IMG/VR virus record: IMGVR_UViG_3300032053_000382
Span: 1-28,794 of that record
Origin: a virus
DNA length: 28,794 nucleotides
Strand: one strand, 5' to 3'
The notes under the pieces were generated by a model. The model searched no databases, was not told where the DNA came from, and saw nothing but the letters and a program-made list of their open reading frames with translations. The position numbers were made by a program, and so were the translations under genes. This document shows, one piece after another, positions 3,656-14,020 of the stretch; within the stretch, counting starts at the first letter, position 1, and every line of letters starts with the position of its first letter.

Positions 3656-3976
3656 ATGAATAAATCTGATTTATTAATATCTTTAGGCGTTAAACCAGAG
3701 AAAATTAATGCAACACCTCAGCCAACTGCGATATGGAATATGAAACTTAGAACATTCGTTAGAAGCGGACATGTTGATATAGAAAAACAATCAGATGGAA
3801 ATTTTATAGCAACACAGGATAATAATAGAACGGTATTTGTTAGGTCTTATATTTCTATTCCGCAAGAACTTGTAGATAAGATAAACAATAATCCAGATGG
3901 GATAGTTTTTTATGATGATGGCGGAGATTGTTTTAGATTTGATTTTATACCACAACCATTTAGCTTTAATTTATGA
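3656..3976 (+). CDS. Hypothetical protein between dam and thyA
   Basis: This 106-residue protein has no membrane segment or known motif. It is rich in aromatic and beta-forming residues toward the end (GIVFYDDGGDCFRFDF). It begins one base after the dam stop and overlaps the thyA start by four bases (ATGA), so it is clearly part of the operon. I do not recognise a family. Confidence 0.75.
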   Translation: MNKSDLLISLGVKPEKINATPQPTAIWNMKLRTFVRSGHVDIEKQSDGNFIATQDNNRTVFVRSYISIPQELVDKINNNPDGIVFYDDGGDCFRFDFIPQPFSFNL

Positions 3977-5268
3977 ACAGTACAGATTTAAAATACCTCG
4001 ATCTTCTTAGAGAAGTACGAAGTAAAGGAACACAAAAATCGGATAGAACTGGAACAGGAACTGTTTCCATTTTTGGAAGGTCTCTAACATTTAATATGAA
4101 GGAAGGATTTCCTCTTTTGACAACGAAGAAGATGCACACTAAAAGTATTGTGCATGAATTGCTTTGGTTCTTACAAGGTGGACATAACATCAAATATCTT
4201 GTAGATAATGGTGTTGGCATTTGGAATGAATGGCCATGGCAGAACTATATGAAAGAGCATGAGACTATTAAAAAGGATTTAGGTGAAGCGATAAGCAAAG
4301 CAGATTCTACTGGAGATGCAATATCTGTAGATTACCTTAGAGAAAAATTGGACAGTCATCCTGCTTTGACATTAGAAGAATTTGTTGCTAAAATAAAAGA
4401 GTCTCCGTTAAGTCATTTGTATTCTTCAACTAAAGATTCTTTCTCAGACATTTGGGGAGAGCTTGGACCTGTTTATGGAAAACAATGGAGACAGTGGCAA
4501 GGTTGGATGCAGTATAAAAAAGACGATGGAAAAACTGGATTTGGTTCTCTTTGGTATGATCAGATTCTTCGTCTTGTACAACAACTTAAAACGAATCCAG
4601 ATTCAAGAAGATTAATGGTGAATGCATGGAATGTTGCTGAGATAGATTCAATGCTTCTTCCACCATGCCATTACGGATTTCAATGTTGGACGAGAGAACT
4701 TACTATAGAAGAAAGATATAACGTTTTTTATAATAAGCATGTAGATCAAAAGCTTGAAGAAAATACTCCTGAATCTGCAATAGATGCTAAATGGACTGTC
4801 AAATCTTTTGAAGGAAGAATAAGAGCAATGACTGGATTAAGTGGAAATAATGCAGGAGAAGCTGCACTGAATATAGCACATAAATGGTTAGACGATTGGA
4901 ATATTCCAAAAAGAGCAATATCATTAATGTGGCAACAACGTTCAGTGGATTTATTCTTGGGATTACCATTCAACATTGCTTCTTATGGATTGTTATTAGA
5001 GATGCTTGCTCAGTCGACAGACATGGTTGCAGATGAGCTTATATTCAATGGGGGAGATTGCCACATCTATGTTAATCACTTTGATCAAGTAGATGAACAA
5101 CTTTCAAGAACAACATTCCCTTTGTGCACTCTTAATCTAACTAAACCTAATTCTGAATACAGCTCATTGCACGGGAACAACGGACATATCATCGAGTATA
5201 AGTATGAAGATATTAAGTTTGAAGGGTACATGAGTCATCCAGCGATTAAGGCACCAATCGCTATTTAA
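3973..5268 (+). CDS. thyA: Thymidylate synthase (ThyA) enlarged by two internal insertions
   Basis: It makes dTMP from dUMP with methylene-tetrahydrofolate. All ThyA landmarks are present: RTGTGT (25-30), HELLWFLQGGHN (61-72), GPVYGKQWR (165-173), SRR (211-213), catalytic C232 in LPPCHYGFQCW, RSVDLFLGLPFN (323-334) with the dUMP-selecting Asn334, HIYVNHFDQ (364-372) and the closing APIAI that caps the active site. At 431 residues it is far longer than the usual about 264. The excess lies in two places, about residues 92-163 and 241-316, both between core motifs and predicted to be surface-exposed. It overlaps the preceding gene by ATGA. It should be fully active as nothing catalytic is missing. 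Confidence 0.95.
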   Translation: MNSTDLKYLDLLREVRSKGTQKSDRTGTGTVSIFGRSLTFNMKEGFPLLTTKKMHTKSIVHELLWFLQGGHNIKYLVDNGVGIWNEWPWQNYMKEHETIKKDLGEAISKADSTGDAISVDYLREKLDSHPALTLEEFVAKIKESPLSHLYSSTKDSFSDIWGELGPVYGKQWRQWQGWMQYKKDDGKTGFGSLWYDQILRLVQQLKTNPDSRRLMVNAWNVAEIDSMLLPPCHYGFQCWTRELTIEERYNVFYNKHVDQKLEENTPESAIDAKWTVKSFEGRIRAMTGLSGNNAGEAALNIAHKWLDDWNIPKRAISLMWQQRSVDLFLGLPFNIASYGLLLEMLAQSTDMVADELIFNGGDCHIYVNHFDQVDEQLSRTTFPLCTLNLTKPNSEYSSLHGNNGHIIEYKYEDIKFEGYMSHPAIKAPIAI

Positions 5269-6071: not shown

Positions 6072-7020
6072 AAGGTTTGAACACTTAATACTAACAGAAA
6101 GAGTAAGAACATCTTTAGGCAATGGTCGCCTAATGCAAAATGTTTTATTATTTGGTTCTCCAGGAACCGGTAAAACATCTGCAGCAAAAGTATTAATACA
6201 AGGTTCACCAAGTATGTACATAAATGTTTCTGATGAATCAAGTGTAGATGTAATCAGAACTAAAATAACAGATTTCTGTTCAAGTATTGCAATAGATTTC
6301 GAAGAGACTGAAAATCCTAATGCTCCAATGCAAGCAAATGGTTTACCAATCAAGGTAATTATTCTTGATGAGATTGACGGAGCTTCAGATCAATTCTTTA
6401 AAGCATTAAGAGCAACAATAGAAAAATATGCTGCTAACTGTAGATTCATTGCAACATGCAATTACATTAATAAAATTCCTGAATCAATCCAATCTCGTTT
6501 TGAATGTATAAGTTTTGACTTTGCAAACAGACAAGAAGAGAATGAAGTAAGAGAAGAATGGAAGAAAAGAATATCTCACATACTTGGTAAATTAAGTATC
6601 GAAGCAGATGATTCAGCTTTACAAGAATTAGTTGACAGAAATTTTCCTGACATGCGTTCTATTTTAAACAAGATACAATCATTCGACATTCAAGGAATAA
6701 AGAAAATAACACAAGACAAAGTTAAAGAACTTAATTGGGATTTTGAAGATGTCTATAAGATGTTAGCAAGCAAACCAGATCCAATTGCAAACTATGAATT
6801 CATATTATCTAATTACTCTTCAATGGTTGAAGATGTAATGAGCAAGATTGGAACTGAATTTATTCATTGGTTAAAAGAAAAACATCCAGATAGAGTTAAG
6901 TTTGTACCAAACATTTTAATCACAACAGCAACACATCAAGCACAGAGACATACTGTTATTGATCCAGTAATTTCCTTATTAAGTTTATGTTTCACAGTTC
7001 AAAAAACACTTAATCCATAA
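6028..7020 (+). CDS. Sliding-clamp loader AAA+ ATPase (T4 gp44/RFC small subunit-like)
   Basis: This 330-residue protein uses ATP to load the sliding clamp for the phage polymerase. It has the RFC-type start LTEKLRPKRFEHLIL (8-22), Walker A GSPGTGKT (43-50), Walker B IILDEID (111-117), sensor 1 in FIATCN (140-145), the SRF box with arginine finger (156-158), and a sensor-2-like FPDMRSILNKIQ segment. The start at 6028 is chosen because the family motif begins at residue 8. It overlaps the preceding gene by 44 bases and the next by TAATG. No clamp (gp45) or polymerase gene is in this window. Confidence 0.93.
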   Translation: MAAIQDLLTEKLRPKRFEHLILTERVRTSLGNGRLMQNVLLFGSPGTGKTSAAKVLIQGSPSMYINVSDESSVDVIRTKITDFCSSIAIDFEETENPNAPMQANGLPIKVIILDEIDGASDQFFKALRATIEKYAANCRFIATCNYINKIPESIQSRFECISFDFANRQEENEVREEWKKRISHILGKLSIEADDSALQELVDRNFPDMRSILNKIQSFDIQGIKKITQDKVKELNWDFEDVYKMLASKPDPIANYEFILSNYSSMVEDVMSKIGTEFIHWLKEKHPDRVKFVPNILITTATHQAQRHTVIDPVISLLSLCFTVQKTLNP

Positions 7021-7292
7021 TGAGTCCATTTTTTAATTTATACGCAAAATACTGTTCAGGAGTTTCTTATACAGTTACAGGAATGGCTGGTTGGATTCTT
7101 GGCTTAAAGATTCCTATCCCTGAACATGGATTACATTGGCAAGCTGCATTACTTATGTTAATTGGAGCATTAGTAACACCATACGGAGTTTATAAGCTAG
7201 TTGATGCAATACTGTATCATATTAAACTAAAAGTAAAAAGAAAATACAAAGAACCAAAAGAACCATTTGAGCCATTTACTGGGAATTCATAA
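7020..7292 (+). CDS. Small membrane protein with a basic and Pro-rich tail
   Basis: This 90-residue protein has a hydrophobic segment at about 41-64 (AALLMLIGALVTPYGVYKLV) and a weaker one at about 15-32, giving one or two membrane helices. The tail is basic then Pro/Glu-rich (KVKRKYKEPKEPFEPF). It overlaps the clamp-loader stop by one base (TAATG), so it is probably co-translated. The function is unknown. Confidence 0.65.
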   Translation: MSPFFNLYAKYCSGVSYTVTGMAGWILGLKIPIPEHGLHWQAALLMLIGALVTPYGVYKLVDAILYHIKLKVKRKYKEPKEPFEPFTGNS

Positions 7293-7310
7293 AGATAAAT
7301 ATAATATACC

Positions 7311-7553
7311 ATGAGCAGAAAAGATAAAATTTCAAAGGAAATTAAAGAAACAAAAGCAGCAAAAAATATAATTGAAACGAAAGAGGAAGAATCATTCGTT
7401 GATTTCAATCCTCTTGATGCCTTGCCAGATATGATTGATAAGGATTACAGTTTCTTCCTAATGTTTGGGAAGCCTGATAATCCAATACCTGGCCCACCAA
7501 GCAACAACTATGACGCAGAGATAAACACTCGCGAACTAGGATTGGGCTTGTAA
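7311..7553 (+). CDS. Small charged hypothetical protein
   Basis: This 80-residue protein has a Lys/Glu-rich, probably helical N-terminal third (KISKEIKETKAAKNIIETKEE) and a Pro-rich segment (FGKPDNPIPGPPSNN) near residue 52. The start ATG follows ATAAATATAATATACC, the typical A/T-rich leader of this genome without Shine-Dalgarno. No family is recognised. Confidence 0.6.
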   Translation: MSRKDKISKEIKETKAAKNIIETKEEESFVDFNPLDALPDMIDKDYSFFLMFGKPDNPIPGPPSNNYDAEINTRELGLGL

Positions 7554-7572
7554 AAATAACCTAACAAGGTGA

Positions 7573-8049
7573 ATGGATGAATTTTTGATTTATGGCGAAA
7601 CCATAACTGGTTGGGCTCTTATTAGAGCCATGAAAGATGTAGCCAACATGAAAGCTGGCGAATGGGGACTTGTTTATTCAAACCTATTTTTTACAAAGAA
7701 AGAATTTTTACCATCATTTGTATTTAAAGATATACCAGTTGGTGATTTTGACGAATACGATGATTACATGCAACATCTCGATACTTTCGAAGATTGTATG
7801 AAGTGTGATCCCCAAGTGGGTTTCTCTTTATACAATGCATGTCTTGATGATGGGTTTAATCCTATATTAGATGACTTCTATATTTACATATTAGAAAGAA
7901 TACAGAAGACTGCAACAGAAGGACAAAAGAATTTATCAAAGCAACAACTTAAGATTCTAATGGAGATATTTGTATCGAAAGAAGAATACGAGAAAGCAAC
8001 TTTGGTGAGAGATACGTTAGAAGATAAATCTGTAAATAAGATCTTTTAA
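7573..8049 (+). CDS. Hypothetical protein with a C-terminal UVR-like helical hairpin
   Basis: In this 158-residue acidic protein, residues 134-150 (VSKEEYEKATLVRDTLE) fit the UVR motif (x-EYExAxxLRDxL), the short helical hairpin by which UvrB and UvrC interact and which also occurs in McsA and ClpC-linked proteins. The preceding residues (LSKQQLKILMEIF) supply the first helix. The N-terminal two thirds match nothing I know. The motif implies protein-protein contact, but the partner is not evident. It is the last protein gene before the RNA region. Its ATG lies 4 bases after AAGGTG, a rare Shine-Dalgarno-like site here. Confidence 0.6.
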   Translation: MDEFLIYGETITGWALIRAMKDVANMKAGEWGLVYSNLFFTKKEFLPSFVFKDIPVGDFDEYDDYMQHLDTFEDCMKCDPQVGFSLYNACLDDGFNPILDDFYIYILERIQKTATEGQKNLSKQQLKILMEIFVSKEEYEKATLVRDTLEDKSVNKIF

Positions 8050-8296
8050 TTTCTAGAAGCTACTAAATCACCAGTTTGATTCCACTGACGGCATTGACCT
8101 TTTACGCCATTGTCATAAGATATAAAGAATAATGAGAAAATTCTTAAGGTAAGTTACATATCATATAGCACAATAGAAAAATCTTTTAATCCAAAAGATA
8201 CAATTATTAAATTAAATTCCGTGCTTCCAAACTAAGACTCTGATTATAAAAAGTAAAATAATTTAAAATAAATTTTTTTCTTTAAATAAAATAATC

Positions 8297-8304
8297 TAAT
8301 TTTG
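8297..8304 (+). promoter_or_regulatory. Candidate promoter (Bacteroidota-type -7 box) for the tRNA array
   Basis: TAATTTTG matches the TAnnTTTG -7 box of Bacteroidota housekeeping promoters and lies in a very A/T-rich tract, 57 bases before a leader-peptide ATG. No clear -33 TTG is visible at the expected spacing, so this is a half-match. The preceding 247 bases (8050-8296) contain no credible gene and would hold the upstream promoter region. Transcription from here would start near 8311 and reach the terminator at 8483-8514. Confidence 0.45.
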
Positions 8305-8360
8305 TGAAAGAAATTGAAACAAAGATAAGTATATAGAGTAGAATAATAAATTTAAACGTA

Positions 8361-8456
8361 ATGATTTCGCAACTAATAACAAAAATAATAACAACAGTCT
8401 CTACTACCAAAACAGGTGGGAAAGGTAAGACTATGTGTTCGGGGATACGAGAATGA
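8361..8456 (+). CDS. Thr/Ile-rich leader peptide of a transcription attenuator
   Basis: This 31-codon frame opens ATG-ATT-TCG and ends TGA 8454-8456. The peptide contains 7 Thr and 5 Ile, concentrated in ITKIITTVSTTKT (residues 6-18, codons 8376-8414), followed by GGKGKT. This is the composition of threonine-operon leader peptides such as E. coli ThrL. The last codons overlap the GGGATAC strand of the antiterminator (8442-8448), so a ribosome at the stop codon would mask it. It is the only open frame between the promoter box and the terminator. I infer a regulatory peptide with no function of its own. Confidence 0.6.
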   Translation: MISQLITKIITTVSTTKTGGKGKTMCSGIRE

Positions 8457-8487
8457 CGTTATAATAAACTGAATTTGAATGTATCCC
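8442..8487 (+). promoter_or_regulatory. Antiterminator arm pair of the attenuator
   Basis: GGGATAC (8442-8448) is perfectly complementary to GTATCCC (8481-8487), which contains the 5' part of the terminator stem (8483-8491). The two structures exclude each other. Stalling on the Thr/Ile codons (8376-8414) would leave GGGATAC free to pair and prevent termination. Full translation to 8456 would cover it and let the terminator form. This is the classical ribosome-mediated attenuation geometry. The mechanism is inferred; the complementarity is seen. Confidence 0.6.
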
Positions 8488-8514
8488 AAACCAAAACGTT
8501 TGGGATTTTTTTTT
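8483..8514 (+). terminator. Attenuator terminator upstream of the tRNA array
   Basis: ATCCCAAAC (8483-8491) and GTTTGGGAT (8498-8506) form a perfect 9-bp stem with loop CAAAAC, followed by T8. It is among the strongest terminators in the window and lies between a short leader peptide and the first tRNA, with no full gene before it to terminate. This fits an attenuator rather than an operon end. Confidence 0.9.
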
Positions 8515-8545
8515 ATATTGTTCTTTGAAAAATATTGTAAAGTAC

Positions 8546-8621
8546 TGGAAATCGCATGAGCCCTTACCAAAAGGGAGCGCACTCATCAGAAGCTTAAATG
8601 CCTAAGGAAAAGCGATTTCCA
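8546..8621 (+). ncRNA. Structured tRNA-sized element of unknown type
   Basis: TGGAAATCGC (8546-8555) and GCGATTTCCA (8612-8621) form a perfect 10-bp closing helix. Inside, ATGAG-CCCTT pairs with AAGGG and CTCAT (8556-8586, six-base bulge), and GCTTA with TAAG forms a second small arm, giving a three-way junction of 76 nt. It sits 6 nt before the initiator-like tRNA. There is no T-loop (TTCRANY), so it is not a normal tRNA, and no CUGANGA core, so it is not a hammerhead ribozyme. It may be a processing signal, tRNA remnant or small RNA. Confidence 0.45.
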
Positions 8622-8627
8622 TCATAT

Positions 8628-8699
8628 TGCGGGATAGAGCAGGGGTAGCTCGACGGGCTCATAACCCGTAGGTCGTTGGTTCGAATCCATCTCCCGCTA
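8628..8699 (+). tRNA. tRNA-Met(CAT), initiator type
   Basis: Cloverleaf: acceptor GCGGGA/TCCCGC with a T-T mismatch at 1-72, D-stem GAGC/GCTC, anticodon arm ACGGG-CTCATAA-CCCGT, and T-loop TTCGAAT. Three G-C pairs at the base of the anticodon stem and an unpaired 1-72 position are the hallmarks of bacterial initiator tRNA. No CCA is encoded. One T-T mismatch lies in the T-stem. It would supply fMet-tRNA for initiation on phage mRNAs. Confidence 0.8.
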
Positions 8700-8703
8700 C
8701 AAA

Positions 8704-8834
8704 TGCGTCTTGCAAAAGAAGGAAGTGCGAAAAGCGCCGTGTATGGTTTAATTCAATAATGGAAAAAATTAGGCGAATCTTTTCTTCTCTAGTCCAAAGT
8801 AAATCCTGATAATAAGGTTCAGGAAGACGCACCA
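8704..8834 (+). ncRNA. tRNA-like structured element with an 8-bp terminal helix and encoded CCA
   Basis: TGCGTCTT (8704-8711) pairs with AAGACGCA (8824-8831), immediately followed by CCA. The 3' end carries a hairpin in the T-arm position (CCTGA/TCAGG, loop of 9), and the interior can form nested helices AGAAG/CTTCT, CGCC/GGCG and TAATT/AATTA, making one long arm instead of D and anticodon arms. It is 131 nt long. It lacks a TTCRANY T-loop and a tag-peptide frame, so tmRNA is not supported. It may be a tRNA-like RNA, a decoy or a strongly rearranged tRNA gene. Confidence 0.4.
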
Positions 8835-8838
8835 CATT

Positions 8839-8926
8839 TGCGAGGTCGACTGGAGTTTGGAACCAGCGGGGGCTCATAACCCTTAACCAGAAATGGAACG
8901 TGGGTTCGAATCCCATCTTCGCACCA
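8839..8926 (+). tRNA. tRNA(CAT), Met- or Ile2-type, with extra hairpin in the variable region
   Basis: Acceptor TGCGAGG/CTTCGCA, D-arm CTGG-AGTTTGGAA-CCAG, anticodon arm GGGGG-CTCATAA-CCCTT, and T-arm GTGGG-TTCGAAT-CCCAT, with CCA encoded at 8924-8926. Two things are odd. Four bases, not two, separate acceptor and D-stem, and the variable region is 15 nt and folds as CCA-GAAA-TGG, a GNRA-capped hairpin. Long variable arms belong to Leu, Ser and Tyr tRNAs, not to CAT tRNAs. It could be an elongator Met, an AUA-reading Ile2 (lysidine) or a second initiator-like tRNA given its G-C anticodon stem. Confidence 0.65.
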
Positions 8927-8969
8927 AGCCGAAAACAATTGATGTTGCAACGTCAATTATTAGTAAGAG

Positions 8970-9025
8970 CGTTTCCAACCGCTATATAAAGAATGGGAAT
9001 TATTTTGAAACGTAAAGAAATAATT
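8970..9025 (+). ncRNA. Possible H-type pseudoknot upstream of tRNA-Thr(GGT)
   Basis: A hairpin AATTATTT (8998-9005) / AAATAATT (9018-9025) carries GAAACG (9007-9012) in its loop, and GAAACG is complementary to upstream CGTTTC (8970-8975), giving an H-type pseudoknot. A separate 8-bp hairpin (AATTGATG/CGTCAATT) lies just upstream near 8938-8959. The helices are A/T-rich, so stability is uncertain. Confidence 0.3.
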
Positions 9026-9044
9026 TTCGTGATTGGAGAACTTT

Positions 9045-9117
9045 GCCTTTGTAGTTCAGTTGGTGGAACACCTCCTTGGTAAGGAGGAGGACATCGGTTC
9101 GATCCCGATCGCAGGCT
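9045..9117 (+). tRNA. tRNA-Thr(GGT)
   Basis: Acceptor GCCTTTG/CGCAGGC with one mismatch, D-stem GTTC/GAAC with loop AGTTGGTG, anticodon arm CCTCC-TTGGTAA-GGAGG, and T-arm ATCGG-TTCGATC-CCGAT. Discriminator T; no CCA encoded. It reads ACU and ACC, and is one of three tRNA-Thr genes in the array. Confidence 0.9.
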
Positions 9118-9218
9118 CTAGTTATGGGACTATTTAGAATTTTGTTGACTTGGCACATTTTCAAGGAGCATAAAAATTCACACATTAGGAAGTGACACAT
9201 ACTTTAGGGGAATGAGTT

Positions 9219-9275
9219 TTCTTGGTACCAAGAATTCCAATCGTCAGTGTTAGAAAGGTGTAGCAATACACTTTT
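9219..9275 (+). other. Inter-tRNA hairpins (probable processing structures)
   Basis: TTCTTGGTACCAAGAA (9219-9234) is a perfect 16-base palindrome. AAAGGTGT (9254-9261) and ACACTTTT (9268-9275) form an 8-bp hairpin with loop AGCAAT, ending five bases before tRNA-Thr(TGT). Neither is followed by a T-tract, so a role in tRNA precursor folding or cleavage is more likely than termination. Confidence 0.35.
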
Positions 9276-9279
9276 ACTC

Positions 9280-9352
9280 GCCTTAGTAGCTCAGTTGGTA
9301 GAGCATCTGATTTGTAATCAGAAGGTCATCGGTTCGAACCCGGTCTGAGGCT
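9280..9352 (+). tRNA. tRNA-Thr(TGT)
   Basis: A regular cloverleaf: GCCTTAG/CTGAGGC, GCTC-AGTTGGTA-GAGC, TCTGA-TTTGTAA-TCAGA, variable AGGTC, and ATCGG-TTCGAAC-CCGGT. No CCA encoded. It reads ACA, the commonest Thr codon in this A/T-rich genome. Confidence 0.95.
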
Positions 9353-9385
9353 CAAAATAAAAGGATGCATACAGCAAACTAAAAC

Positions 9386-9494
9386 AGCTAAGTAGCTCAG
9401 TTGGTAGAGCACTCGCCGTGAAATCCTGGTCAATGGAAACATTGTTAAGGAAAGTAATCGATAGGTCATGGGTTCGAATCCCATCTTTGCCCCA
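9386..9494 (+). tRNA. Split or degenerate tRNA with a GNRA hairpin inserted in the anticodon region
   Basis: The D-arm (GCTC-AGTTGGTA-GAGC), variable AGGTC, T-arm (ATGGG-TTCGAAT-CCCAT) and CCA (9492-9494) are canonical. Between D-arm and variable loop there are about 51 nt instead of about 18. The excess folds as TCCT (9424-9427), CAATG-GAAA-CATTG (9431-9444) and AGGA (9448-9451). The acceptor pairs imperfectly (AGCTAAG against CTTTGCC, two mismatches) and no complete 5-bp anticodon stem can be formed. No anticodon can be assigned safely. It is either a tRNA with a small intron-like insertion or a decaying gene. Confidence 0.5.
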
Positions 9495-9524
9495 GTACTA
9501 GTCATCCTGTAAAATGGTAGTAAA

Positions 9525-9773
9525 ATGGAATTGATAAAAATAATAGAAATAACTGATCCGGAAATAATTAAAAATTTTCAGGCTTCACGTGAAAAAAATG
9601 AAAAGCTAAGAGAAGGAATTCGTCAAGGACGAAAGATCTCTGAACTAGCAGAAGAACTTGGATTTGAATTTTGTCAACCTTTGAAAGATGATGGCAAAGA
9701 AAAAAAGAAAAAAGTAGTAATTGAATTAATAAAAGAAGTAAACATGAAAACTAAACAGAAATATAAACGGTAA
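9525..9773 (+). CDS. Small charged hypothetical protein inside the tRNA array
   Basis: This 82-residue basic protein starts MELIKIIEITDPEIIKNFQ, has a helical middle (REKNEKLREGIRQGRKISELAEELGF), and ends Lys-rich. The segment RKISELAEELGF resembles one helix of a helix-turn-helix but is too short to call. It is flanked by tRNAs and followed three bases on by a strong hairpin. Codon use resembles that of neighbouring phage genes. Confidence 0.5.
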   Translation: MELIKIIEITDPEIIKNFQASREKNEKLREGIRQGRKISELAEELGFEFCQPLKDDGKEKKKKVVIELIKEVNMKTKQKYKR

Positions 9774-9775
9774 TC

Positions 9776-9799
9776 GCTACTCGCTGAAATACGAGTAGC
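9776..9799 (+). other. Strong hairpin between a small gene and tRNA-Lys
   Basis: GCTACTCG (9776-9783) and CGAGTAGC (9792-9799) form a perfect 8-bp stem with loop CTGAAATA, two bases after the preceding stop codon. No T-tract follows, so it probably marks an RNase cut or protects the mRNA 3' end when the downstream tRNA is released. Confidence 0.5.
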
Positions 9800-9814
9800 A
9801 TCAAATAAATAAAT

Positions 9815-9888
9815 GCGTTCGTAGCTCAGCTGGTAGATGCACTCGGCTTTTAACCGAGGGGTCGTGAGTTCGAATCTCACCGGGCGCA
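9815..9888 (+). tRNA. tRNA-Lys(TTT)
   Basis: GCGTTCG/CGGGCGC acceptor (two G-T pairs), D-stem GCTC paired with GA-T-GC carrying one bulged T, anticodon arm CTCGG-CTTTTAA-CCGAG, and T-arm GTGAG-TTCGAAT-CTCAC. No CCA encoded. It reads AAA and AAG. Confidence 0.9.
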
Positions 9889-9907
9889 CTTTTAAATTTT
9901 GATAATT

Positions 9908-9996
9908 GCACCCGTTCGCTTAGTTGGCCCAAAGTACCATACTTTTAATATGGAGAGTTAATGTCTCGATCGCAGGTTCGAATCCTGTCGGGTGCA
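9908..9996 (+). tRNA. Second tRNA-Lys(TTT), with an expanded variable region
   Basis: Acceptor GCACCCG/CGGGTGC is perfect, anticodon arm is CCATA-CTTTTAA-TATGG and T-arm is GCAGG-TTCGAAT-CCTGT. The variable region is 18 nt and can pair GAG with CTC around TTAATGT, a class II-like arm abnormal for Lys. The D-arm is weak, with only about three pairs (CTT/AAG) around a GG-containing loop. It shares its anticodon with the gene 20 bases upstream but little else, so it is not a simple tandem duplicate. Confidence 0.75.
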
Positions 9997-10028
9997 CAAA
10001 TGGAAAGAAAGAAAAGAAATTTAAAATA

Positions 10029-10089
10029 CTGCCGGTATCACAACCCCATAAATGAATGCGTTTACAGTACGGGGTACGCATTAAGGCAG
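10029..10089 (+). ncRNA. H-type pseudoknot enclosed in a 5-bp helix
   Basis: ACCCC (10043-10047) pairs with GGGGT (10071-10075). AATGCGT (10055-10061), inside that loop, pairs with ACGCATT (10076-10082), directly abutting the first helix so the two can stack coaxially. CTGCC (10029-10033) and GGCAG (10085-10089) close the whole. Perfect 5-bp and 7-bp interleaved helices in 40 nt are unlikely by chance. It ends five bases before the next tRNA. The fold resembles small riboswitch or ribozyme cores, but I cannot match it to a known class. Confidence 0.5.
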
Positions 10090-10093
10090 ACAA

Positions 10094-10178
10094 GGCGCTG
10101 TGAACAGATGTGGTAATAGTGTCCGCCTCATAAGCGGATTCCTTTTAGGAAGTGTGAGTTCGAGTCTCACCAGCGCTA
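10094..10178 (+). tRNA. tRNA(CAT) with a class II-like variable arm
   Basis: Acceptor GGCGCTG/CAGCGCT (G-T at the end), anticodon arm TCCGC-CTCATAA-GCGGA, variable arm TTCC-TTTTA-GGAA, and T-arm GTGAG-TTCGAGT-CTCAC. The D-arm is weak (ACA/TGT) with GG in the loop. CAT reads AUG, or AUA if C34 becomes lysidine. A long variable arm is not expected for either Met or Ile. It is followed directly by a start codon at 10180. Confidence 0.7.
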
Positions 10179-10179
10179 C

Positions 10180-10371
10180 ATGATTGAAAAAATTTTTACG
10201 CATATAATAGGTGTAAGAAAAAAATGGTTACGAAAAGAATCTTATAATGTTCAGATTATAAAATCAGAAAAAGTAAGAATTTGGTATGACCATTTTAAAA
10301 AGACAGGAGAAAGATTAAATTTTAAAACAATTAAAGTAGATACGGAAAGAATAAAACATTTATTAAGATGA
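10180..10371 (+). CDS. Small basic hypothetical protein
   Basis: This 63-residue protein is rich in Lys and Arg with aromatic residues (RKKWLRKESYNVQIIKSEKV). Its ATG lies two bases after the discriminator base of the upstream tRNA, so tRNA 3' processing would leave a leaderless mRNA. Its stop overlaps the next start (ATGA at 10368), which supports a real two-gene unit. No family is recognised. Confidence 0.55.
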   Translation: MIEKIFTHIIGVRKKWLRKESYNVQIIKSEKVRIWYDHFKKTGERLNFKTIKVDTERIKHLLR

Positions 10372-10655
10372 GTTATAAAAGTCATAAAATACACGGAACA
10401 GTAGACATGAGTGGAGATGTTTATTGGAAACTTTATAAGAGTTCGAGAGGCAATGGTTTTATAACAGTTATTTGTTTACAATGGTTTGATGAAAATGATT
10501 ATTATGAAGATAGATTTATAAAGAATAGTCAAGATGAAATCCATGTGTTTGAGACAGAAGAAATGGCAATTGAAAAATTAAATGAATGGTATAAGCCGGA
10601 TGAAATTGATCCGGAATATAGAAGGAGTACGATAGAAAATCTTGTAAGAGATTAA
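10368..10655 (+). CDS. Hypothetical protein in the tRNA array
   Basis: This 95-residue acidic protein has alternating aromatic and charged residues (WKLYKSSRGNGFITVICLQWF) that suggest a small beta-rich fold, then a helical acidic tail. It overlaps the upstream gene by four bases and ends eight bases before tRNA-Lys(CTT). No known motif is seen. Confidence 0.6.
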   Translation: MSYKSHKIHGTVDMSGDVYWKLYKSSRGNGFITVICLQWFDENDYYEDRFIKNSQDEIHVFETEEMAIEKLNEWYKPDEIDPEYRRSTIENLVRD

Positions 10656-10663
10656 TATAAAAA

Positions 10664-10736
10664 GACTTTGTAGCTCAGTTGGTAGAGTACCTGACTCTTA
10701 ATCAGGGGGTCGTGGGTTCGAACCCCACCGGGGTTA
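10664..10736 (+). tRNA. tRNA-Lys(CTT)
   Basis: GCTC-AGTTGGTA-GAGT, CCTGA-CTCTTAA-TCAGG, variable GGGTC, and GTGGG-TTCGAAC-CCCAC. The acceptor GACTTTG/CGGGGTT depends on four or five G-T pairs but is complete. No CCA encoded. It reads AAG. Confidence 0.88.
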
Positions 10737-10745
10737 CTAGATATT

Positions 10746-10786
10746 TTGTACCTGAATTTAGATATATAAAATAAATTCAGGTTACA
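10746..10786 (+). promoter_or_regulatory. Hairpin with a late-promoter-like loop in front of the homing nuclease
   Basis: ACCTGAATTTA (10750-10760) and TAAATTCAGGT (10772-10782) form a perfect 11-bp stem, extended by TTGT/ACAA with one bulged T, ending two bases before the nuclease ATG (10789). The loop contains TATATAAA (10763-10770), close to the T4 late promoter TATAAATA. In T4 I-TevI a hairpin hides the start on early read-through mRNA and a late promoter in the hairpin makes a translatable late mRNA. The arrangement here looks the same. Confidence 0.55.
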
Positions 10787-10788
10787 AG

Positions 10789-11385
10789 ATGCCAAGAAAA
10801 CAAAAGAAGTATCATTATTTGTATAAAACTACAAATTTGATAAATGGAAAATTTTATGTTGGAATGCATTCAACAGATAATTTGAACGATGGTTATTTAG
10901 GAAGTGGGAAAAGATTAAGATATTCTATATCAAAGTATGGTAAAGATAATTTTAAGATTGAGCATTTAGAGTTCTTTGAAGATAGAAAAACATTGGCTGA
11001 GAAAGAAAAGAATCTCGTTAATGAAGAACTTATAAAAGATATAATGTGTATGAATTTGCATATTGGTGGAGAAGGTGGTTTTTCAAAAGAGCATGCACTA
11101 AAAGGACGAATTACACTTATAAAAAGACTTGAGTCAGATGAAAATTTAAAAATGCATCTATTAAAGAATTTGAACGGTCTTTCCTGGAAAGACACATTTT
11201 CTTGGAAGGGCAAAAAACATTCAAGTAAAACAATTAATAAATTGATAAATCATAATAGACAAACAGGAGAAAAAAATTCACAGTTTGGCACATGTTGGAT
11301 TAACAATGGAATTATTAATAAAAAAATTAAAAAAGAAGAACTACAAAAATATAAAGATTGGGTTAAAGGAAGATTAACTAAGTAG
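10789..11385 (+). CDS. Free-standing GIY-YIG homing endonuclease
   Basis: This 198-residue protein has a GIY-YIG-type catalytic region at about 8-60 (YLYKTTNLINGKFYVG, then DGYLGSGKRL and ISKYGKDNFKIEHLEFF). A NUMOD3-like DNA-binding motif GKKHSSKT lies at 141-148, and a C-terminal WINNG...W-x-x-GR segment typical of phage homing nucleases follows. Such enzymes cut related phage genomes lacking the gene and spread by repair. It lies between tRNA-Lys and a tRNA-like element, and tRNA clusters are common insertion sites for them. The start is likely controlled by the hairpin just upstream. Confidence 0.88.
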   Translation: MPRKQKKYHYLYKTTNLINGKFYVGMHSTDNLNDGYLGSGKRLRYSISKYGKDNFKIEHLEFFEDRKTLAEKEKNLVNEELIKDIMCMNLHIGGEGGFSKEHALKGRITLIKRLESDENLKMHLLKNLNGLSWKDTFSWKGKKHSSKTINKLINHNRQTGEKNSQFGTCWINNGIINKKIKKEELQKYKDWVKGRLTK

Positions 11386-11445
11386 AAACAAGATTATACA
11401 GTCGGTATATAAAGAACGTTATTTGAAGTATTGTGTATCATCAAA

Positions 11446-11522
11446 TGCCAGGCGATAATGAGCGGTTTGGAATGGCCTCATTAGCTTCCATTCGTCGGAT
11501 GCGAATCCGATCCTGGCACCCA
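11446..11522 (+). tRNA. tRNA-like element with perfect acceptor and CCA but abnormal core
   Basis: TGCCAGG/CCTGGCA is a perfect 7-bp acceptor followed by C and CCA (11520-11522). The T-arm TCGG...CCGA has an eight-base loop ATGCGAAT in place of TTCGAAT. Inside, TAATGAG pairs perfectly with CTCATTA, or alternatively GAATGG with CCATTC, exposing a CTCATTA loop like the CTCATAA loop of the CAT tRNAs. The two interior folds exclude each other. It may be a rearranged CAT tRNA or a tRNA mimic; a working amino-acid tRNA is doubtful. Confidence 0.5.
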
Positions 11523-11542
11523 ATTAGCAGTGCCACGGTTTT

Positions 11543-11626
11543 TGGGTGTGTGTTGCGGCAGAAATAAATTACGATAGTGAAATAATTCTGTTACCACTTA
11601 CCGTCTCTCGAAAGAGTTGACACCCA
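11543..11626 (+). ncRNA. tRNA-sized element closed by a 7-bp helix
   Basis: TGGGTGT (11543-11549) and ACACCCA (11620-11626) form a perfect 7-bp terminal helix around 70 nt. A CTCT-CGAA-AGAG hairpin occupies the T-arm position, and CAGAA/TTCTG forms a middle arm whose loop AGTG can pair with a downstream CACT. There is no anticodon arm or TTC T-loop. It lies six bases before tRNA-Gly(TCC). This is the same pattern as the elements at 8546 and 8704. Confidence 0.35.
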
Positions 11627-11631
11627 TCTTT

Positions 11632-11705
11632 GCATCAGTCGCATAGTGGCCTATTGCACCTGCCTTCCAAGCAGGATCTCGCCGGTTCGAATCCGGCCTG
11701 GTGCT
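11632..11705 (+). tRNA. tRNA-Gly(TCC)
   Basis: Acceptor GCATCAG/CTGGTGC, short D-stem GCA/TGC, anticodon arm CCTGC-CTTCCAA-GCAGG, and T-arm GCCGG-TTCGAAT-CCGGC. No CCA. It reads GGA, the preferred Gly codon of the phage genes here. The 130 bases between this and the next tRNA hold no safe gene. Confidence 0.9.
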
Positions 11706-11835
11706 CTTTTTCTGGTAAGTTTTTAAATAACAAAGGGATAAAAGTTTATAGGATTGAATGGAATGAAGTAATAACTGAAGATGGAAGAAAAAATATGAAA
11801 GAAAAAATTGATAACTTTATTTCGTATTACAAAAT

Positions 11836-11907
11836 GCAGATGTAGCTCAGTGGTAGAATATTTCCTTGCCAAGGAAAAGGCCGCAGGTTCGAATCCTGTC
11901 ATCTGCT
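11836..11907 (+). tRNA. tRNA-Gly(GCC)
   Basis: GCAGATG/CATCTGC, GCTC-AGTGGTA-GAAT, TTTCC-TTGCCAA-GGAAA, variable AGGCC, and GCAGG-TTCGAAT-CCTGT. No CCA encoded. A regular cloverleaf reading GGU and GGC. Confidence 0.93.
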
Positions 11908-11913
11908 CAACAT

Positions 11914-11999
11914 GCAACCGGAGGTTAACTCCCCTGGCATTCGACTCCGCAACTGTGGGTTAAGTGGAATGTTTGTTAACTGAGGTTGCTCCTTTTTTT
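11914..11999 (+). terminator. Long rod-like hairpin with T-tract between two tRNA-Gly genes
   Basis: Nested pairs GCAACC/GGTTGC (11914/11984), GTTAAC/GTTAAC (11924/11975), CATTC/GAATG (11938/11967) and CCGC/GTGG form one long interrupted hairpin, followed by TCC and seven T. It could end or reduce transcription midway through the array, or be a processing site. The internal loops make a strong terminator uncertain. Confidence 0.4.
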
Positions 12000-12003
12000 A
12001 AAC

Positions 12004-12092
12004 GCAGTAGTAGCTCCTAACTGGACGCGAAAGCATAGAGCACCTGACTTCCAATCAGGGGGTTATCGGTTCGAATCCGATCTACTGCACCA
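12004..12092 (+). tRNA. tRNA-Gly(TCC) with a GCGAAAGC mini-hairpin in the D-loop
   Basis: Acceptor GCAGTAG/CTACTGC, D-stem GCTC/GAGC, anticodon arm CCTGA-CTTCCAA-TCAGG, T-arm ATCGG-TTCGAAT-CCGAT, A73 and encoded CCA (12090-12092). The D-loop is 21 nt instead of about 8 because it contains GCGAAAGC, a GNRA-capped mini-hairpin. The rest is intact and well paired. It duplicates the decoding of the gene at 11632 with a different body sequence. Confidence 0.8.
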
Positions 12093-12093
12093 A

Positions 12094-12168
12094 ATGATAG
12101 TATCAGCTGTAATAATAATTGCAATAATCCTGATGGGTTACATGCTGTACGACACTCGTCAAAAATAG
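12094..12168 (+). CDS. 24-residue single-span membrane microprotein (possible)
   Basis: It starts at ATG two bases after the CCA of tRNA-Gly and ends TAG. The product is almost entirely a membrane helix (IVSAVIIIAIILMGYML) with a polar tail DTRQK. The composition is unlike random A/T-rich sequence, and it fills the gap between two tRNAs. As with the gene at 10180, release of the tRNA would leave a near-leaderless mRNA. At this length it could be chance. Confidence 0.35.
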   Translation: MIVSAVIIIAIILMGYMLYDTRQK

Positions 12169-12172
12169 TGTC

Positions 12173-12245
12173 GCCGATGTAGCTCAGTTGGTAGAGTGCA
12201 TGTTTCGTAAAGATGAGGTCGCAGGTTCGAAACCTGTCATCGGCT
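12173..12245 (+). tRNA. tRNA-Thr(CGT)
   Basis: GCCGATG/CATCGGC, GCTC-AGTTGGTA-GAGT, anticodon arm CATGT-TTCGTAA-AGATG with one G-G mismatch, variable AGGTC, and GCAGG-TTCGAAA-CCTGT. It reads ACG and, with the GGT and TGT genes, completes the Thr codon box. It is the last tRNA of the array and is followed by a T-rich stretch. Confidence 0.88.
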
Positions 12246-12285
12246 CAATTTTTTTTATTATATTTACATTCAATTTAAAGATAAA

Positions 12286-12504
12286 ATGTTGACTGTTAAA
12301 ATTAATAATTCAGATAAAAATTGTTGGTATTATAATCTGCAATTTAAAAACAATAAACAAAAAACTTTTGAAGTTATTCCAAATGCGAGTTTTTCAAAGT
12401 TTATTATTGTTAAAGGAGATTGTGTTGGAAAAGAAATAATGTCAGAGCATGTTAAGGATATTCCAGCAAAAGATGTTTTGAGACTTTTTAAAGAAATTAG
12501 ATAA
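12286..12504 (+). CDS. Small hypothetical protein
   Basis: This 72-residue basic protein starts MLTVKINNSDKNCWYYNLQF, then a likely beta-rich half and a helical end (PAKDVLRLFKEI). The stop is immediately followed by the next start (TAA-ATG), so the two form a unit. No motif is recognised. Confidence 0.6.
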   Translation: MLTVKINNSDKNCWYYNLQFKNNKQKTFEVIPNASFSKFIIVKGDCVGKEIMSEHVKDIPAKDVLRLFKEIR

Positions 12505-13095
12505 ATGAAAAGAAATAAGATATACGGAATTTTGATGCGTCCAGTTTCGATGAATGCAAAAGACAACGAAAAAGTTATGCAATCAACTGATGTATCTGTG
12601 AAGGAAGGATTTTATAAAGCATATAGCCATCATGTTGGTGCATTGCAAATTGTAGCAGAATGTGCAAAGGTATATGTGAATAAGAATTGGAAGAAGGTTA
12701 AGGATTGGAGTGACTTAAATGTCATATTAGAAGATGCAAATACATTAAAGGGATCATTAAATGATTTTAATGGAGGAAAACCTTTAAAAGATTTTGTTGA
12801 GTATTTCAATTACAAAGAGGGTAATAGAAGAAGCATGCAGGTTGTTGGAGGGAAGACTAGAAGTTCTGTTGTTGATAAAATAATGGATAGGATTGATAAA
12901 GAGGATAGGGCAAAACATAATCCTATTAAAACAGTAAAAGGTGTTGTTTTAGATCCAACAGATGGAGATTTTTCTCTGACTATCAATGGAAGAAAACACA
13001 TGTGGATAAGTGATAACACAATAATAATAATTGCCGATTATGTTGAGAAACAATTGGCTAAGAAGAAGAAAGTAGTAAAAACAAAAACCGAATAA
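12505..13095 (+). CDS. Hypothetical protein upstream of the release factor gene
   Basis: This 196-residue, strongly basic soluble protein ends in a Lys-rich tail (KKKKVVKTKTE). Segments such as SVVDKIMDRIDKEDRAK suggest helices, and FSLTINGRKHMWISDNTIIIIADYVEK a beta-rich end. No membrane span or catalytic motif is visible. It lies head to tail between a small gene and the release factor gene with no gap, so it probably shares their transcript. I do not recognise the family. Confidence 0.7.
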   Translation: MKRNKIYGILMRPVSMNAKDNEKVMQSTDVSVKEGFYKAYSHHVGALQIVAECAKVYVNKNWKKVKDWSDLNVILEDANTLKGSLNDFNGGKPLKDFVEYFNYKEGNRRSMQVVGGKTRSSVVDKIMDRIDKEDRAKHNPIKTVKGVVLDPTDGDFSLTINGRKHMWISDNTIIIIADYVEKQLAKKKKVVKTKTE

Positions 13096-13096
13096 A

Positions 13097-13786
13097 ATGA
13101 AAACAGAAAGAATCAAGCTCGAAATTCGAGCAGCAGAAGGAGGAGAAGATGCAAAGCTCCTTGTCAACGAAATGGCGGACATTTATCAAAAGGCCGCAAG
13201 CATTAACAAATTTGTTTCTTCAGTAGAGAACTGACTACCAGGATATGTCGCACTGTGACTGACTGGAAACGGGGTCAGGGAGTTCTTCGAGAACGAAGCA
13301 GGTGGACATAGATGGCAGAGAGTTCCTCCAACTGAAAAGCGAGGTCGAGTTCAAACAAGCACTGTAACAGTTGCTGTGATGGATGAAAATTCCAAACCAA
13401 AATACGTCTTAAACAAAAGTGAAGTCGATCGTCAATACACTTGTTCCGGTGGAAAAGGTGGGCAGAACGTAAATCGTCGTTCAACTTGCGTTATTTTGAT
13501 TCATAAACCTACTGGTATAATTGTTAGGTCTGAAGAAAATAGAACACAAGGAAAGAACGAAGATGCTGCATGGAAACGCTTAGAAGAAAAGTTAGGTGAG
13601 ATACACAATGGCAAAGATGAAGAGAAGGTAAAAGAAAATAGGTTTAATCAAATTGGATATGGAAACAGAAACGATAAGAGAAGAACTTATAGAGAGCAAG
13701 ATGGTTTTGTCCTTGATCACATTACTAACAAAAGGATAACAATAAAAGAGTTGTATAAGGGAAACATTAAACAACTCCACGCATAA
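13097..13786 (+). CDS. RF1-type peptide chain release factor-like gene with two in-frame TGA codons
   Basis: One reading frame of 230 codons encodes a class I release factor without its N-terminal domain: IRAAEGGEDA (10-19, the IRAGxGGxEA motif), GGHRWQRVPPTEKRG (69-83) and GGQ at 121-123 in CSGGKGGQNVNRRS, then NRTQGKN and RTYREQDGFVLDH. PPT (77-79) is the P-x-T tripeptide of RF1, which reads UAA and UAG, not UGA. The frame is interrupted by TGA at 13232-13234 (codon 46) and 13256-13258 (codon 54). Between and after them the frame continues to match the family (TGNGVREFFENEAGG), so no frameshift or insertion explains them. Either UGA is read through, or the gene is broken and only a GGQ-domain protein (ATG at 13379, about 135 residues, like ArfB/ICT1) is made. 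Confidence 0.75.
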
Positions 13787-13805
13787 TAATTGAATATATA
13801 AATTA

Positions 13806-13994
13806 ATGAAACTGGAAGAAATGTCATCATATCAAGACATAAAGAATTACGAACACATCTTTTTAAAGACGGTTGAACCGTACAAGAAAGGATCGTACGA
13901 AAAAAGTGTGCGAACAAAGTGGGCACGACTTCGTGCATTTGCAAAATTGAGGGCATCATTCAAGTTTAAACTAAAACGATTTGAATTGAATTAG
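13806..13994 (+). CDS. Small strongly basic hypothetical protein
   Basis: This 62-residue protein has a basic helical C-terminal half (KWARLRAFAKLRASFKFKLKR) suited to binding nucleic acid. The start follows TATATAAATTA, a box repeated before several genes here. It is downstream of the release factor gene. No family is recognised. Confidence 0.5.
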   Translation: MKLEEMSSYQDIKNYEHIFLKTVEPYKKGSYEKSVRTKWARLRAFAKLRASFKFKLKRFELN

Positions 13995-14020
13995 AAGAAA
14001 TTAAACATATATTTCAACTG

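Follow-up and report, generated by a model that had tools for sequence, protein, structure and literature searches.

Leader peptides that mirror the tRNA genes behind them: putative multi-input transcription attenuators of tRNA arrays in huge phages

Introduction

When and why phages express their tRNA arrays is a long-standing question, and it is raised again by a 28.8-kb linear IMG/VR fragment, referred to here as the window, in which a short open reading frame and an intrinsic terminator stand in front of such an array. A first-pass annotation of this locus described a threonine-type attenuator, with scarcity of charged tRNA-Thr or tRNA-Ile opening the array. The window comes from a T4-superfamily myovirus, as indicated by its clamp loader and T4-like terminase and sheath, and this phage is related to Lak and other megaphages, as well as to L003, a 482-kb contig with 88% identity in the clamp loader and 87% in the terminase. 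From the boxA-like element described below and the relatedness to Lak phages, whose host is Prevotella (PMC6784885), we infer a host of the phylum Bacteroidota. Two thymidylate-synthase-like genes are also found in the fragment, at 368-1270 and 3973-5268.

Results

The leader region of the window

The features of the locus are as follows.

8316..8346, + strand: upstream block GAAACAAAGATAAGTATATAGAGTAGAATAA, a candidate promoter or 5′ UTR; 31 nt identical in the window, L003 and L002
8361..8456, + strand: leader ORF, MISQLITKIITTVSTTKTGGKGKTMCSGIRE followed by a stop; 31 codons, equal in length in L003 and L002
8370..8432, + strand: regulatory-codon core QLITKIITTVSTTKTGGKGKT, 5′ of the antiterminator strand
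8442..8448, + strand: antiterminator 5′ strand GGGATAC (segment 2), at the ORF end, complementary to 8481-8487
8481..8487, + strand: antiterminator 3′ strand GTATCCC (segment 3), overlapping the terminator 5′ arm
8483..8514, + strand: intrinsic terminator, with hairpin 8483-8506 and T-run 8507-8514; conserved in L003 and L002
8520..8528, + strand: boxA-like element GTTCTTTGA, 3′ of the terminator; same position in relatives
8628..12246, + strand: putatively controlled tRNA array; 11 tRNAs by ARAGORN, plus tRNA-like genes

The ORF with its seven Thr and five Ile codons, the complementarity of GGGATAC to GTATCCC and the terminator overlapping GTATCCC had all been reported in the first-pass annotation, and each is present as described. 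Four of the five Ile codons are ATA. With 0 mismatches allowed, each record has one copy of the upstream block GAAACAAAGATAAGTATATAGAGTAGAATAA.

Thr is the most over-represented residue of the window leader, with 7 of 28 residues compared with 1.6 expected from the proteins of this phage (P = 8e-4), and ARAGORN confirms the three tRNA-Thr genes previously noted downstream (GGU, UGU and CGU). These observations favour a thr-operon-type attenuator sensing only Thr, and perhaps Ile. However, Thr, Lys and Gly together account for 14 of the 21 core residues versus 4.4 expected (P = 7e-6), and the array likewise carries three Lys and two Gly tRNAs, besides three with the Met/CAU anticodon. Of the proposed sensing of Thr and Ile scarcity, the Thr component is supported as part of a longer list. 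For the five Ile codons the array offers no confirmed tRNA-Ile; it is possible that they are matched, if one of the CAU tRNAs is a tRNA-Ile2.

The amino-acid identities of the atypical CAU and UUU tRNAs of the window are uncertain. Those at 8839-8925, 10094-10179 and 9908-9997 have odd D-arms or long variable arms, and the anticodon stem of the CAU tRNA at 8628-8700 is of the initiator type (GGG/CCC). A conserved non-tRNA RNA separates the first two tRNAs, at 8701-8838, the structure of which is backed by three relatives with five pairs changed on both sides, and which has no match in Rfam. A tRNA-like gene at 9386-9492 has a long insert in its anticodon arm, is conserved in L003 and lacks arms in L002; it may be a tRNA with an intron, of the kind reported in Lak phages (PMC6784885).

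Conservation in close relatives

In L003 and L002 the element sits, as in the window, between a UVR-motif gene and a tRNA array, and the three leaders, each of exactly 31 codons, share 55% peptide identity. The core of the pairing, GGGAT/ATCCC, is kept in all three phages with the extra pairs shifting flank, such that GGGATAC/GTATCCC in the window corresponds to TTTGGGAT/ATCCCAAA in L003. The box GTTCTTTGA is also common to all three. Loss of the Thr codons or of the pairing in relatives had been named at the outset as what would count against attenuation, and the comparison instead favours the general claim: the pairing is conserved, whilst the Thr codons, numbering seven, eight and four in the window, L003 and L002, are fewer in the last. 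The L002 leader has the lowest Thr and the highest Lys count of the three, with six Lys codons, which speaks against a sensor of Thr only. Its array contains a Thr(UGU) tRNA copy with a disrupted anticodon and a first tRNA-Met reduced to a stub, and the L002 leader thus appears to follow its array, within which the L002 sequence ends.

A long-range stem between the start and stop regions of L003, AACGTCAT...ATGACGTT, was considered and set aside, with at least one pair broken in both the window and L002; it is not needed by the attenuation model. Between the box and the first tRNA of the window (8543-8625), complementary ends can be seen by eye, GGAAATCGC...GCGATTTCC, with TTGGAAC...GTTCCAA in relatives. 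These are perhaps a processing stem, and an alignment fold of this region returned no consensus structure.

A class of leader elements in front of phage tRNA arrays

A search for relatives with the neighbouring UVR-motif protein yielded two phages only, and it was the combination of a terminase search with a pattern of a T-run followed by GTTCTTTGA that revealed a class. The pattern is present in 13 of 50 terminase relatives, with the reversed control pattern giving 0 matches in the same 50, and nearly all matches lie in front of tRNA genes, together with a terminator and a short ORF. Scanning viral contigs, mostly from IMG/VR, for the pattern yielded 105 usable elements that fall into 38 leader clusters, all 105 having a short, putatively translated ORF that ends near the terminator. 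The median leader length is 30 codons, the terminator follows the stop codon by 21-31 nt (10th-90th percentile across cluster representatives), and the first tRNA begins a median of 18 nt past the box. One leader precedes 21 tRNAs and approximates a one-of-each list. In L395 (2957), a second, box-less leader, MRNQNQYNYYPMPEQGNEGNYMDTDLG, lies within the array before Asn, Met, Glu and Tyr tRNAs.

When applied to 257 Gb of cellular genomes, the pattern matched at 13 scattered places, compared with at least 120 stretches in viral contigs, and none of the 13 stands in front of a tRNA array by ARAGORN; a host origin of the leader-terminator-box-tRNA arrangement was sought in these genomes and not found. 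In INPHARED there were no close nucleotide homologues of three leader regions and no close protein homologues of two leaders, with just two chance-level matches in one search.

Leader codons match the tRNAs of their own array

Match statistics used one leader per cluster (37 cluster representatives); the T-run and box pattern, by which most elements were found, biases this set to terminators but not to a codon match or to complementarity of ORF ends, contig ends truncate some of the arrays, and the clusters may be distantly related. Among the 37 representatives, 62.2% of leader residues have a tRNA in their own array versus 44.0±1.7% after permutation, with 0 of 20,000 permutations reaching the observed value, and 93.8% of array amino acids are found in their own leader versus 71.7% permuted. 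The match is confined to the translated frame (z = 11.0), with frames +1 and +2 and the antisense strand at about -1 to 0; by both permutation and frame, the control codons thus fit the function of the downstream operon. Furthermore, across the 37 families the match is limited to codons at the position of the core, with those that end 9 nt or more upstream of the antiterminator strand matching at 0.692 versus 0.440 (z = 11.7), and tail codons at 0.449 versus 0.437 (z = 0.4).

Rare residues track their tRNAs, with Trp found in 13/14 leaders whose array has the tRNA versus 3/23 of the others, and Tyr in 17/17 versus 7/20, and Gln and Glu likewise follow the presence of theirs. Within split codon boxes, the codon tracks the anticodon for Leu, Arg, Ser and Ile (P = 0.02 to 0.001). 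The leader MKNTLYSSLYASLGTG precedes Tyr Ser Ser Leu Leu Ala tRNAs, MSVCNSKFTHKTGASNRYLG precedes Phe Cys His Thr Met Lys Gly Ala, and MKKYITYSAGLPETYHNDQPEDNKPLGGISM precedes Thr Tyr Glu His Asp Asn Gln Pro Leu, with other composite leaders built on Ser/Arg, on Asp/Glu/Val/Leu/Ala/Trp, on Gln/Met/Ile/Glu, or on Leu throughout. These composite leaders mirror whole arrays, and the label "threonine-type" is consequently wrong; on this codon-array match we reject Thr-only sensing, which we regard as improbable.

The same match is seen in a set collected independently of the box, in which arrays from the published records Lak-B1, LR745206, LR756501 and LR756500 were chosen by their tRNAs only and leaders by terminator position only, the longer ORF being taken where two were possible. 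The 11 leaders of these megaphages match at 58.5% versus 27.0±4.9% (0/200,000 permutations) with a coverage of 98%; for LR756500-a an inner ATG was set manually as the start, and without this trimming its match is 0.60. The leader MLQTSKHSKHFSSSSKWFTTF... precedes Trp His Phe Lys Ser tRNAs, and MNNILHINLLNSLCLLGIKLIG precedes five Leu tRNAs; LR756501 has a Leu-only leader. No such leaders were found in six control records, namely Erwinia, Aeromonas, Phaeobacter, Sinorhizobium and Vibrio phages and an Acinetobacter record, the last of which looks bacterial, with the control phages being mostly of Proteobacteria.

A different reading would take the ORF and its terminator for an ordinary gene of a conserved small protein, the array being transcribed from separate promoters and the codon match being incidental. 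Peptides are indeed conserved inside a cluster, and the leaders of the window clade share a C-terminal GKGKxMCxGxCE motif. Between clusters, however, the sequence differs and the composition follows the array (0/20,000, as above), the tail residues show no such dependence, ORF end and terminator are specifically complementary (see below), and among ten sampled relatives nearly all arrays of at least two tRNAs have a leader, some of them without the box. We therefore consider a small-protein gene highly unlikely. A peptide acting in trans, for which peTrpL of Sinorhizobium offers a precedent (PMC7298713), or a T-box-like direct sensing of uncharged tRNA, is no more credible, with neither predicting a match in the translated frame only and before segment 2 only, and with no T-box match in Rfam over window positions 7000-14000 at E up to 10.

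Pairing and folding of the antiterminator

The attenuation reading draws further support from the RNA. The complementarity of ORF ends to their own terminators scores 20.0 versus 13.3±0.47 with swapped terminators and falls mostly 10-30 nt upstream of the last base of the stop codon; in the window it is scored as GGGATACG/TGTATCCC. In simulations, segment 3 is captured by upstream RNA with a value of 0.66 for a stalled ribosome and 0.11 for a ribosome at the stop codon, and segment 2 is freed by the stall relative to stop-codon occupancy in 37/37 families. This difference is partly trivial because masking removes upstream RNA, and shuffled upstream RNA is therefore the fairer comparison, against which native upstream RNA performs better in 34/37 families. 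By these measures the antiterminator and terminator are mutually exclusive across the class, and a ribosome that has reached the stop codon would mask the 5′ strand, an arrangement that is modest in the window.

Folding with and without masking had been proposed as a check on the window, where the margin over shuffled upstream RNA is small. The folding energy of the window is unremarkable compared with shuffles (z about -0.9), with L003 (-3.5) and L002 (-2.4) folding better than shuffled, and equilibrium folding of the window by itself was discarded as uninformative. The window antiterminator is likewise modest, with segment 3 held at 0.56 native versus 0.46 shuffled, and in the equilibrium simulation the terminator still forms with a probability of 0.82 when the ribosome is stalled, such that the window switch would have to act kinetically.

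A boxA-like element beyond the terminator

The box past the terminator is absent from the first-pass annotation. Most elements carry GTTCTTTGACAT, identical to a box before 23S rRNA in Bacteroidota, and GTTCTTTGACATATTGG is found in Bacteroidota genomes in the 16S-23S spacer just before 23S rRNA. Exact matches to GTTCTTTGACATNTTGG number three, in 2 of 60 Bacteroidota genomes, and all three lie in 16S-23S spacers just before 23S rRNA; the phage box therefore resembles an rRNA-type boxA. Past GTTCTTTGA, the copy in the window departs from this sequence. The element probably recruits the Nus antitermination machinery of the host.

Discussion

Attenuation of the tRNA array by a translating ribosome, as put forward in the first-pass annotation, is strongly supported by these comparisons of sequence and appears to be a general phenomenon. 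We consider it very likely that the element is a multi-input ribosome-mediated transcription attenuator controlling a phage tRNA operon. RNA polymerase would transcribe a leader ORF whose codons are read by tRNAs of the downstream array, with the window leader sensing mainly Thr, Lys and Gly, and possibly Ile or Met. With all listed charged tRNAs present, the ribosome would translate through to the stop codon and mask segment 2 (GGGATAC), so that the terminator hairpin would form and the array would be off. Were any listed charged tRNA in short supply, the ribosome would stall in the core, segments 2 and 3 would pair, the terminator would not form in time, and the array would be transcribed, giving the leader the predicted logic of an OR-gate. 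Beyond the terminator, the boxA-like element may engage the Nus machinery and so keep polymerase transcribing across the long untranslated array. The tRNAs produced would relieve the stall and close a negative feedback loop.

Candidate triggers include depletion or cleavage of host tRNAs, or heavy demand by the phage. Replacement of tRNAs lost to cleavage or degradation would make the most sense, since extra uncharged tRNA cannot cure amino-acid starvation.

The phage elements share with the thrL, hisL, ilvL and trpL attenuators a short ORF with regulatory codons, a segment 2 masked at the stop codon, exclusive 2:3 and 3:4 hairpins, and an intrinsic terminator. They differ in controlling tRNAs rather than biosynthetic enzymes, in listing up to about 19 amino acids where amino-acid-operon attenuators list one to three, and in residing in phages, usually followed by a boxA-like element; the Rfam Thr leader has no match in window positions 7000-14000 at E up to 10. 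T-box riboswitches similarly read out tRNA charging by transcription attenuation, whereas the phage leaders would sense it through translated codons. Compared with the boxA of bacterial rRNA operons, the phage GTTCTTTGACATATTGG is identical to the Bacteroidota pre-23S element, but comes after a regulated terminator and before phage tRNAs.

Leader-peptide attenuators have been suggested in 5′ UTRs of Flavobacterium psychrophilum (PMC9723704) and in Bacteroides thetaiotaomicron (PMC7366714), making the presumed host phylum one for which translation-coupled attenuation has been proposed. In the portions of these two reports relied on here, the F. psychrophilum attenuators control amino-acid biosynthesis operons, in contrast to the phage leaders, and no tRNA operon is named for either species. 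The huge-phage and Lak papers make no mention of leaders, attenuators or terminators, and, in keeping with the earlier remark that no phage tRNA cluster was known to be so controlled, searches of open-access PMC found no description of leader attenuators for phage tRNA arrays.

It is likely that these elements form a widespread and previously undescribed class in huge phages of Bacteroidota, with leaders acting as codon checklists, or OR-gates, for the array that follows, and any listed shortage, such as that caused by cleavage by a host anticodon nuclease, switching on the whole replacement set. Attenuation would thereby reach beyond biosynthetic operons to the supply of tRNAs, with each leader taking many inputs and being linked to an rRNA-type antitermination box. 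The leaders spell out in codons what each array serves and so predict its on-signal, namely a local failure to decode codons that the array can serve. Compensation of codon bias and replacement of tRNAs destroyed by host defence or by the phage thus become testable array by array, and the leader, used as an annotation handle, may reveal the amino-acid identity of odd or intron-bearing phage tRNAs.
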